64,000 nt of DNA from positions 806,001-870,000 of the forward strand of contig NZ_CP014209.1 in assembly GCF_001636295.1 (NCBI RefSeq). Direction: 5' to 3'. Position numbers and translations under genes: made by a program. Position 1 is the first letter of the stretch. Every line of letters begins with the position of its first letter. Below, piece by piece: positions 39,097 to 41,048 of the stretch. The DNA is from Isoptericola dokdonensis DS-3 (lineage in GTDB: Bacteria; Actinomycetota; Actinomycetes; Actinomycetales; Cellulomonadaceae). Under the pieces are notes generated by a model. The model did not search any database and had not been told where the DNA came from. It saw only the letters and a list, made by a program, of their open reading frames with translations.

Positions 39097-39918
39097 TCAC
39101 CCGTCCGCCCGCACCCGCGCCACCGTGCGGGCGTGCTCCGCCGCGACGGCCGGGTCGGCCAGTCGCGGGTCGTCCGGCGGGCGCCCGGCCCCGACGGCGT
39201 CGAGGTAGCGCAGGTCGGCATCGATTCGTGCGGACGGCCTCCGCGTGGGCACGCCGTGCCCCGGCACCAGCACCGCGGCTCGGGCCACGTACGGGGCGAT
39301 CCTGTCCAGCCCGGCCCGGTACCCCGCCAGGTCGCCGCGACCGCTGATCTCGTCGAACGGCAGCGGCACCTCGACGTCGCTCAGCAGGTCGCCCGCGAGC
39401 AGCACGCGCGCGCCCGGCAGCCACAGCGCGGCGTGACCGGGCGCGTGGGCGCCGTGCTCGACCACCTCGACGTCGGGCAGCGCACCCGCGCCGTCGGGGA
39501 GGCGATCTGCTCCGGGCGCGAGCCCTCGCACCCGCCCCAGCTGGGCGAGCACCGCGGGCGGATGGTCCGCCCCGCCGTACCGCTCGGCGTCGAGCCGCGC
39601 CTCGGCGAGCAGACGTCGCCGCTCCCGCCCGGCCGTCGCCGCCGTCGTCGCCGTCGCCCAGCGCGGCACGTCACCCAGCGCGGGATGCCAGAGCAGGTGG
39701 TCGTGGTGGGCGTGCGTCGCGAACCCCGCGACGACGGCGGCGCCGAGGTGCCGGACCTCGCGCGCGAGGCCCTCCAGCTCGTCGGGCTCCCACGCCGGGT
39801 CGACCAGCAGGCCGCACCGCCCGGTCGGACCCGGGCCGCCCAGGACGAGCGTCGTGGTGGTCGCGAGCCGGCGGCTCACCGCGACCAGCACGCCGTCGGC
39901 GACGGCCTCGAGCCTCAT
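39097..39918 (-). CDS. MBL-fold metallo-hydrolase
   Basis: This 273-residue cytoplasmic metallo-beta-lactamase-fold hydrolase has the zinc motif THAHHDHLLWHP, with later ligands in GAHAPGHAALWLPGARVLLAGDLL and the C-terminal VLVPGHGVPT. It lacks signs of a lactamase leader peptide, and its substrate is not known; glyoxalase-II-like or RNase-like roles can be excluded only loosely. ATG 39918 begins MRLEAVADGVLVAVS, and TACCGT six bases upstream suggests leaderless transcription. It converges on the membrane hydrolase gene with 22 bp between stops. Confidence 0.87.
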   Translation of the reverse strand: MRLEAVADGVLVAVSRRLATTTTLVLGGPGPTGRCGLLVDPAWEPDELEGLAREVRHLGAAVVAGFATHAHHDHLLWHPALGDVPRWATATTAATAGRERRRLLAEARLDAERYGGADHPPAVLAQLGRVRGLAPGADRLPDGAGALPDVEVVEHGAHAPGHAALWLPGARVLLAGDLLSDVEVPLPFDEISGRGDLAGYRAGLDRIAPYVARAAVLVPGHGVPTRRPSARIDADLRYLDAVGAGRPPDDPRLADPAVAAEHARTVARVRADG

Positions 39919-39924
39919 GGGGGC

Positions 39925-39930
39925 ACGGTA
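39925..39930 (-). promoter_or_regulatory. leaderless -10 element of the MBL-fold gene
   Basis: TACCGT on the minus strand lies six bases before the ATG at 39918. Confidence 0.45.
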
Positions 39931-40090
39931 TCCGGCGCGCGGCACGTCGGCGGTCCCCCTCCGACGGCGCGCAGGTCCGGCCCGCGCAGGGCTCGGCCGT
40001 AATTCGCTGGACCGCGGTCCGGGCGCGGGCGCAGGATCGACCCCGGAGACGCGCACCGGGCGCGTCGGCGCAAGGAAGGAGGGCGACGAG

Positions 40091-40150
40091 ATGGACGTCT
40101 TCGTCACGCACGCCCTCCCCACGGGACGGGCGACGACCCCCCTCCTCTGA
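40091..40150 (+). CDS. 19-residue leader peptide of the RIO kinase gene
   Basis: An ATG with a strong AGGAAGGAGG ribosome site eight bases upstream encodes MDVFVTHALPTGRATTPLL and ends in TGA at 40148-40150, 40 bases before the RIO kinase start. The translated signal is better than that of many real genes here. Its end leads straight into the alternate hairpin described next, so it looks like a regulatory leader peptide whose translation or stalling controls the kinase. The sequence is not one I can match to a named leader. Confidence 0.7.
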   Translation: MDVFVTHALPTGRATTPLL

Positions 40151-40185
40151 GGAGCCGACGCGGCTCCTCCCCCTGCCTTGGAGCC
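40149..40185 (+). promoter_or_regulatory. three-segment attenuator hiding or freeing the RIO kinase ribosome site
   Basis: GAGGAGCC (40149-40156) pairs with GGCTCCTC (40162-40169). GGCTCC (40162-40167) can instead pair with GGAGCC at 40180-40185, which contains the Shine-Dalgarno GGAG of the kinase gene, seven bases before its GTG. The two pairings exclude each other. The first segment begins within the leader stop codon. No run of T's follows, so control of translation is more likely than transcription termination. Confidence 0.65.
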
Positions 40186-40190
40186 CGATC

Positions 40191-41048
40191 GTGCCTCAGC
40201 ACACCCCCGACCGTCAGATCCTCACCCTCGACACCGGCACGGACGCCGTCGAACCCGACCCCGACCAGCGGTGGTCGACCTGGCCGAGCATCGCCAAGGG
40301 TCAGCGCGGACCGCAGCCCCACCCCGACTGGGTCGTGACCGCTGCCGCCGCGCTCGACACCGAGCTCGGCGTCCTCAAGACCGGCAAGGAGGCCGACGTC
40401 TTCCTCGTGGAGCGCGCCGTGCCCGACGACCCGGACCGCTCGGTGCTGCTCGCCGCCAAGCGGTACCGCGACACCGAGCACCGCCAGTTCCATCGCGCCG
40501 GCACCTACACCGAGGGGCGGCGCGAGCGCCGCAGCCGTGACCAGCGCGCCGCCCAGGACCGCTCGTCGGCCTGGGGCCGTGCCGTGCGGGCGACGCAGTG
40601 GGCGGACGCCGAGTTCGCGACGCTGTGCGCCCTGTGGGAGGCGGGAGCGCCGGTCCCGTACCCGGTGCAGATCGACGGCACCGAGCTGCTGCTGGAGTTC
40701 GTCGGTCACATCGACGACTCGGGTGCCGCCGTGGCTGCGCCGCGCCTCGCCCAGTGCCGCCCGGAGCCCGACCTCCTCGCCGACTGGTACGAGCAGCTCC
40801 GCACCGCGATGGGCGTCCTGGCGCGGCTCGGCTGGGCGCACGGCGACCTGTCGCCGTACAACGTGCTCGCCGACGGTGAGCGGCTCGTCGTCATCGACCT
40901 GCCGCAGGTCGTCGACCTCGTGGCGAACCCGTTCGGCGGCGAGCTGCTGCACCGCGACTGCCGGAACATCGGCGCCTGGTTCTCTGCGCGCGGGCTGGAG
41001 GTCGACGTCGACGCCCTGTTCGCGGAGGTGTTCGCCCAGGCCTGGTGA
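40191..41048 (+). CDS. RIO-family atypical serine kinase
   Basis: RIO kinases are atypical protein kinases/ATPases tied to ribosome maturation in archaea and eukaryotes; bacterial roles are unclear. The 285-residue protein shows a short N-terminal region, the glycine-poor P-loop strand VLKTGKEADVFLVER, the ATP-site Lys in LAAKRYRDTEHRQF, a charged flexible stretch, LLLEFVGHIDD as hinge, the catalytic HGDLSPYNVL and the metal-binding VVIDLPQVVD. It starts at GTG, seven bases after GGAG. A leader peptide and alternate hairpins upstream suggest control by translation state. The neighbours are unrelated. Confidence 0.88.
   Translation: MPQHTPDRQILTLDTGTDAVEPDPDQRWSTWPSIAKGQRGPQPHPDWVVTAAAALDTELGVLKTGKEADVFLVERAVPDDPDRSVLLAAKRYRDTEHRQFHRAGTYTEGRRERRSRDQRAAQDRSSAWGRAVRATQWADAEFATLCALWEAGAPVPYPVQIDGTELLLEFVGHIDDSGAAVAAPRLAQCRPEPDLLADWYEQLRTAMGVLARLGWAHGDLSPYNVLADGERLVVIDLPQVVDLVANPFGGELLHRDCRNIGAWFSARGLEVDVDALFAEVFAQAW

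Follow-up and report, generated by a model that had tools for sequence, protein, structure and literature searches.

A RIO-family kinase gene of Isoptericola dokdonensis DS-3 is probably subject to two-layer translation-stress control, exerted by a WhiB7-type promoter and by a ribosome-sensing leader, as sequence comparison and folding models suggest. In the first layer, to which the conserved promoter anatomy points, WhiB7 would activate transcription via an AT box before the -35 element. The second, suggested by folding and by the conserved anatomy, would be ribosome sensing by a leader ORF of the same mRNA. During fluent reading, ribosomes at the end of the leader would cover a first RNA segment; the second segment would then pair with the third and hide the Shine-Dalgarno sequence (SD) of the kinase. 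If ribosomes stall early or the leader end is not reached, segment 1 would hold segment 2, and the kinase SD would stay more open. The window, by which we mean the whole stretch of 64,000 nucleotides that was analyzed, contains the following features at this locus:

39999 to 40004, plus strand: WhiB7/WblC-type AT box GTAATT, 3 bp before the -35 element, matching 5 of 6 positions of GAAAWY as published in the relevant passages of PMC7157823
40008 to 40013, plus strand: -35 element TGGACC, which fits TKGMNN
40032 to 40037, plus strand: -10 element CAGGAT, spacer 18, departing from the published TANNNT at position 1
40073 to 40082, plus strand: leader SD, AGGAAGGAGG
40091 to 40150, plus strand: leader ORF of 19 codons, MDVFVTHALPTGRATTPLL, with ATG at 40091 and TGA at 40148-40150
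40149 to 40156, plus strand: segment 1, putative decoy of the kinase SD, GAGGAGCC, with the core GGAGCC at 40151-40156
40162 to 40169, plus strand: segment 2, putative anti-SD, GGCTCCTC, with the core GGCTCC at 40162-40167
40180 to 40185, plus strand: segment 3, GGAGCC, containing the kinase SD GGAG
40191 to 41048, plus strand: RIO1-family kinase gene, GTG start at 40191, 285 aa

Re-reading of the sequence confirmed that the short frame, its SD, the three hexamers and the kinase start lie exactly where the initial annotation had placed them. The kinase GGAG is separated from the GTG by seven bases. Judging by the -10 element, transcription is expected to start at about 40045, upstream of the leader. 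Rfam contained no family at the leader, and its single match (E 0.32) sits downstream of the kinase. A genome-wide search with AATTCGCTGGAC, one mismatch being allowed, returned the window site and four one-mismatch sites. The intergenic region of the leader promoter is shared with a divergent gene (39097-39918, minus strand), the product of which we take by eye, from a THAHHDH motif, to be a metallo-beta-lactamase-fold-like hydrolase. We also observed that GGAGGGC (40078-40084), part of the leader SD, has a potential pairing partner in GCCCTCC (40112-40118, leader codons 8-10). By eye, pairs of this kind also occur in further Isoptericola and in a group that we label Xylanimonas-like.

In archaea and eukaryotes, RIO kinases are known for their part in ribosome assembly. 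Bacterial members are not known to have a substrate or a ribosome contact. The product of the downstream gene belongs to the RIO1 family (Pfam RIO1, 4e-27). It has the RIO domain of archaeal and eukaryotic Rio1 (PDB 1zp9 and others) with the motifs TGKEA, H(A/G)DLS.YN and IDxxQ: its TGKEA, HGDLSPYN and IDLPQ align with TGKEA, HADLSEYN and IDMGQ of archaeal Rio1. In contrast to those proteins, this kinase is bacterial, and the alignments start at residue 52 or later.

Orthologous loci came from a search of relatives (28 of 58 genomes with E <= 0.001, including one weak match), from named genomes, where the best 80 of 563 relatives were used and the sample therefore leans to close relatives, and from a family search (75 of 221 genomes, two weak). 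Duplicates were removed (L029-L039, L069, L167, L168, L173, L175, L177-L179, L181, L182, L185, L190, L192 and L194). L028 and the G105, G035 and second G214 matches (E 5.9e-4 to 8.2e-5) were excluded as non-orthologues. The group labels of some genomes were assigned by likeness to named ones. To count as a leader, a frame of 10-45 codons had to begin with ATG or GTG 30-180 nt ahead of the kinase start and to have an SD match of at least 5 bases. L010, with its weak SD, was included by hand, and L108, in which a leader and a box were seen by eye, stands outside the rule-based count.

By this rule, 125 of 128 loci had a leader, compared with 5.1 in shuffles of the same 128 sequences; on the reverse strand, used as a control, a leader-like frame was present in 23 of 128. 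Three further loci gave no match under a similar rule (L085, L109 and L195), making 125 of 131 tested loci overall, with the shuffle expectation covering the 128 only. In L109 and L195 a leader was visible by eye, but its SD was weak or its frame was longer. The leader count argues strongly against a chance arrangement, in which the short GC-rich frame and the repeated hexamers would be functionless, and so does the excess of both masking models (see below) over shuffles. High-GC DNA is indeed rich in frames and in GGAG/CTCC words, and the weak covariation inside genera would also suit chance, which we nevertheless regard as very improbable.

The leaders occurred in two forms. In the tandem form, seen in the window and in 81 of 128 loci, the leader stop lies 32-100 nt before the kinase start, with a spacing of <=45 nt in 51 of the 81. 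In the overlap form (47 of 128), the leader starts 50-70 nt upstream of the kinase and ends past its start, out of frame. The distance between the two starts was 58, 61, 64, 67 or 70 in 42 of the 47 overlap loci. These distances, noted for overlap loci among L025-L107, equal 1 mod 3 and thus represent a single out-of-frame phase. Both forms were found among the 17 Isoptericola loci, 12 of which are tandem and 5 overlap.

What the leader keeps is its start, its frame and its RNA. The peptides are alike within genera (e.g., MAITALRHVRISPTSLFRSTPVVFRVRTL and MDDVVRAAALAAADATVTRSTRH) and dissimilar between them, and no excess of synonymous changes was detected in the leader codons of the six groups tested. 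The frame and the place of the ribosome therefore seem to matter, and not the peptide. Of the proposal that a conserved leader precedes the RIO kinase, the conserved frame was borne out in 125 of 131 loci, but selection on the peptide was not apparent in the six groups. These data bear on a drug-specific arrest peptide of the erm/cat kind, whose amino acid sequence would stall the ribosome with a given antibiotic. The likeness of the peptides inside genera speaks for such a peptide, but the lack of a synonymous excess and the dissimilarity across genera make it an unlikely explanation. Instead, the leader seems to act via ribosome position rather than via a particular arrest sequence.

We then consider the promoter. 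The WblC motif, as published in the passages of PMC7157823 that define it, consists of GAAAWY, 3 bp, a TKGMNN -35 element, a 16-19 bp spacer and TANNNT. The window promoter reads GTAATT-CGC-TGGACC-18-CAGGAT, and it resembles the WhiB7/WblC regulon promoters, as described in parts of PMC7157823 and PMC3905903, in the AT box 3 bp before the -35 element, the TKGM and the 16-19 bp spacer. In contrast to the T of the promoters published there, the first position of the -10 element was mostly C or G at our loci. A sigma-70 scan revealed no standard promoter. Relatives were searched with a rule looser than the published motif: the box had to match 5 of 6 positions of GAAAWY, or have 5 of 6 A/T, or reach 4 in both respects, the -35 element had to contain TKGM, and the -10 element had to have A at position 2 and T at position 6. 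When the 160 nt preceding the leader were scanned, 67 of 93 loci carried a motif of this kind, compared with 0.34 expected from shuffles scored likewise. Extending the stretch to 220 nt gave 92 of 128 loci, with 0.43 expected. Among random real windows of 145 nt, 33 of 3200 satisfied the rule. The suggested link of the locus to translation stress is thus strengthened by a putative WhiB7-type promoter in 92 of 128 loci.

The rule missed 36 of the 128 loci. Nine of these (seven Microbacterium, L024 and L193) were boxless by eye. Most of the other 27, including all 13 of the Promicromonospora group, had by eye an AT box and a departing -35 element, L101 and L105 being doubtful. At L085 (Paraoerskovia marina), where no leader was seen, a WhiB7-like box and a -10 element lie by eye directly before the kinase ATG. 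The mRNA of this locus may perhaps be leaderless, in which case the second layer would have been lost naturally.

The I. dokdonensis genome encodes a WhiB7 with an AT hook (L113, 1420-1791, minus strand; C terminus KRGRGRPRK). Among 29 genomes searched, to which that of L082 does not belong, 21 gave a clear WhiB7 match (best 59-274 bits, the 59-bit match being in two pieces). In the remaining eight, namely seven Microbacterium and G055, the genome of L024, only other WhiB proteins were found (best 35-41 bits). The promoter motif was present in 18 of the 21 genomes with WhiB7 but in only one of the eight without it (L097, a weak case), with Fisher p=5e-4, although shared ancestry of the loci inflates significance. 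In the seven Microbacterium genomes the leader and the segments are kept, and WhiB7 and the box are gone. Since the leader persists there without WhiB7, the two layers seem to be separable in nature.

The second layer depends on the predicted pairing of the three segments. In the window, helix 1 is formed by GAGGAGCC (40149-40156) and GGCTCCTC (40162-40169), begins within the leader stop codon and, together with a G-C pair adjoining the loop, comprises 9 pairs. The hexamer pairing proposed in the initial annotation was correct in that the helices are mutually exclusive, but the first helix is longer than had been stated. Folded in isolation, the first helix had -16.0 kcal/mol and the competing 6-pair helix -9.9 kcal/mol. 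With flanks, the ensemble energies were -24.5 kcal/mol with the first helix forced and -26.1 kcal/mol with the second, closed helix forced. When the RNA was masked through 40160, corresponding to a ribosome at the stop codon, the second helix was retained in the best fold. The modeled closed state is only slightly more stable, and a terminating ribosome would soon depart, which counts against the switch. Furthermore, CTCC in the last leader codons offers the kinase SD an alternative partner once the first helix has formed.

Mutually exclusive pairing that would hide the target SD was found in the window and in most tandem groups. There the three segments recur, segment 1 at or near the leader end, with flanks that vary by genus. 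Segments 1, 2 and 3 are GAGGAGCC, GGCTCCTC and GGAGCC in Isoptericola; GGAGCAC, GTGCTCC and GGAGCAC in Promicromonospora; GAGGAGCC, GGCTCCTC and GAGGAGCC in Oerskovia; and GGAGCGC, GCGCTCC and GGAGC in 5 of 16 loci of the Cellulosimicrobium group. For Microbacterium, GAGGCCACC, GGTGGCCTCC and GGAGCCACACC were set by eye, and the 2:3 pairing needs a bulge; in 7 of 9 loci an ungapped stem search favored another SD partner, located in the final codons of the leader. We conclude that the putative segments change in concert across genera. Layouts other than the three-segment one characterize the overlap loci and the Xylanimonas-like group. The latter shows a layout of four parts, in which CTGCCTCCCG lies within the leader and CGGGAGGCAG follows it. 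This layout was seen at L150-L154, L156, L017, L041 and L193, and at several of these loci CCTCCCG stands beside the kinase SD. The expectation that relatives share the three segments thus agreed with most tandem groups but not with 5 of the 17 Isoptericola loci, which lack them and have an overlapping leader. By the initial annotation's own reckoning, this limits the three-segment claim.

Within genera, the share of paired cells for helices 1:2 and 2:3 was 91.7% and 81.3% in Isoptericola, 87.5% and 89.7% in Promicromonospora, and 98.6% and 91.7% in Microbacterium, compared with 28-62% for slid controls across genera. Two-sided compensatory pairs numbered 1 and 0, 0 and 1, and 0 and 0, respectively. 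The compensatory changes that had been foreseen were therefore scarce, with at most one two-sided pair per helix in the three genera. Only for Promicromonospora 2:3 was the covariation score seldom reached by shuffles (23 of 500); for the other five of the six helices, shuffles readily matched the measures, and for Isoptericola 2:3 a slid version scored higher in covariation than the structure itself. Since pairing is kept and two-sided changes amount to 0 or 1 per helix, the predicted pairing within genera is a matter of conservation more than of covariation. The nucleotide conservation holds at all codon positions and may also reflect another, unmodeled constraint.

The effect of ribosomes was modeled by masking their footprint on the RNA and computing the cost of opening the kinase SD. 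The model covered 93 loci (46 tandem and 47 overlap), 35 later additions lying outside it. In the window, opening cost 4.0 kcal/mol without a ribosome, 5.9 with one at the stop codon and 4.5 on average for earlier stalls. The difference between late and early ribosomes was +1.5 kcal/mol and was matched by 2 of 24 shuffles, so that the predicted switch is modest in the window alone. Across the 46 tandem loci the difference was 1.95 kcal/mol, compared with 0.03 in shuffles (Wilcoxon p=1.6e-7; related loci are not independent, and the p values of the masking models are therefore only indicative). It lay above the shuffle mean in 35 of 46 loci and at or below it in 11, and 11 of 46 beat all 24 shuffles. 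Group means were 1.55 in Isoptericola (12 loci), 4.82 in Promicromonospora (6), 3.45 in Oerskovia (2) and 2.59 in Microbacterium with L024 (9). The effect was absent in Cellulosimicrobium (mean -0.13, 5 loci) and in the Xylanimonas-like group (-0.23, 2 loci). The prediction that an early stall leaves the SD more open and a late ribosome closes it agreed with the tandem average. It was less successful for a ribosome exactly at the leader stop, where the mean rise over earlier stalls was 1.18 kcal/mol and exceeded 1 kcal/mol in only 23 of 46 loci.

In the overlap relatives, a ribosome held at the leader start would cover an anti-SD that lies just ahead of the leader's ribosome site, and ribosomes translating the leader fluently would pass across the kinase start. 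In the model, the ribosome-free SD of the 47 overlap loci was unusually buried (7.10 kcal/mol, compared with 4.68 in shuffles). A ribosome at the leader start cut the opening cost by 2.65 kcal/mol (shuffles, -0.14; p=5e-9, to be read as above); 40 of 47 loci lay above the shuffle mean, and 19 of 47 beat all 20 shuffles. With a smaller footprint (15 nt upstream reach) the effect was still 1.55. It was also 1.55 with the ribosome at the second codon and fell to 0.28, 0.15 and 0.17 at the third, fourth and sixth. Since a ribosome beyond the second codon no longer opens the SD, the overlap form could sense only those held at codons 1 and 2. Seven overlap loci, including all five of Isoptericola, were not above their own mean, and three of the latter (L004, L005 and L014) opened instead with the ribosome at the sixth codon. 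We conclude that, in the folding model, ribosome position on the leader alters kinase SD exposure on average.

The burial of the kinase SD in ribosome-free RNA (overlap loci, 7.1 kcal/mol; shuffles, 4.7) would also suit positive coupling, in which leader ribosomes unwind the region or re-initiate and leader translation is needed for kinase synthesis. In line with this, the sole helpful ribosome at overlap loci stands at the leader start, as expected also of initiation as such, and short spacings prevail in the tandem form (51 of 81 at <=45 nt). On the other hand, 47 of 128 leaders run out of frame across the kinase start, which their fluent translation should occlude, and at tandem loci the SD is closed more by late than by early ribosomes. 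We therefore consider positive coupling improbable and prefer sensing of stalled or held ribosomes.

The leader might alternatively control transcription, through a terminator/antiterminator or a Rho choice, as for whiB7/wblC itself. According to the parts of PMC11550727 that treat them, whiB7/wblC are regulated by uORF-mediated attenuation in which a Rho-independent terminator is switched, so that transcription attenuation is a mode of the same regulon, and a role of Rho is compatible with the sequence. Yet no terminator-like site was found in 39920-40300, 105 of 128 loci had no T-rich octamer between the leader start and the kinase start, and the kinase SD itself takes part in the pairing. 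Transcriptional control by the leader thus appears rather unlikely to us, and translational control by SD exposure is favored.

Translational attenuators of the erm/cat type have a leader ORF, mutually exclusive hairpins and a hidden SD that is opened by a stalled ribosome. The proposed kinase leader has the same leader ORF, exclusive hairpins and hidden SD, which a stalled ribosome would open. It differs from erm/cat in that no conserved arrest peptide is demonstrated, in that many relatives have the overlapping-leader form and in that, to our knowledge, the target is not a known resistance gene. The attenuation of whiB7/wblC, as far as it is described in the passages cited above, is likewise actinobacterial and employs a short translated leader, impaired translation of which turns the gene on under ribosome-targeting stress; here, by contrast, no terminator was seen, the target SD lies inside the pairing and the target is a RIO kinase. 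For Streptomyces ABCF genes, parts of PMC12421871 describe ribosome-mediated attenuation with stalls at the leader start codon; those systems differ in having a terminator and an antiterminator and in targeting resistance ABCF proteins. The type of control is thus known, and what is new is the unexpected target, a RIO kinase, and the presence of more than one design.

The term RIO is absent from the main texts of PMC7157823, PMC3905903, PMC12421871 and PMC11550727, and the term kinase is absent from those of PMC7157823 and PMC3905903. None of the open-licence papers searched linked RIO with WhiB7, and PMC10219788 offered nothing relevant. The WhiB7 response is described, in the relevant parts of PMC7157823 and PMC11550727, in terms of antibiotic resistance. 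If our reading is true, a protein kinase would join this antibiotic-stress response, and a WhiB7 promoter and a ribosome-sensing leader on one mRNA would provide a testable context, ribosome stress, for bacterial RIO kinases. Different RNA designs could reach the same logic. More tentatively, actinobacterial RIO kinases could be ribosome-stress effectors that are produced only if WhiB7 activity AND stalling on a leader that senses ribosome position coincide, a logic realized in at least two RNA architectures, and that target the ribosome or its factors, much as their archaeal and eukaryotic relatives target the small subunit; we see this as a possibility somewhat short of even chances. Finally, far upstream of the whiB7 start in this genome (L113, 1780-2340, minus strand), an A-rich box, a -10-like TATGCT and a short frame were seen by eye, and by eye this region resembles the described wblC leader.
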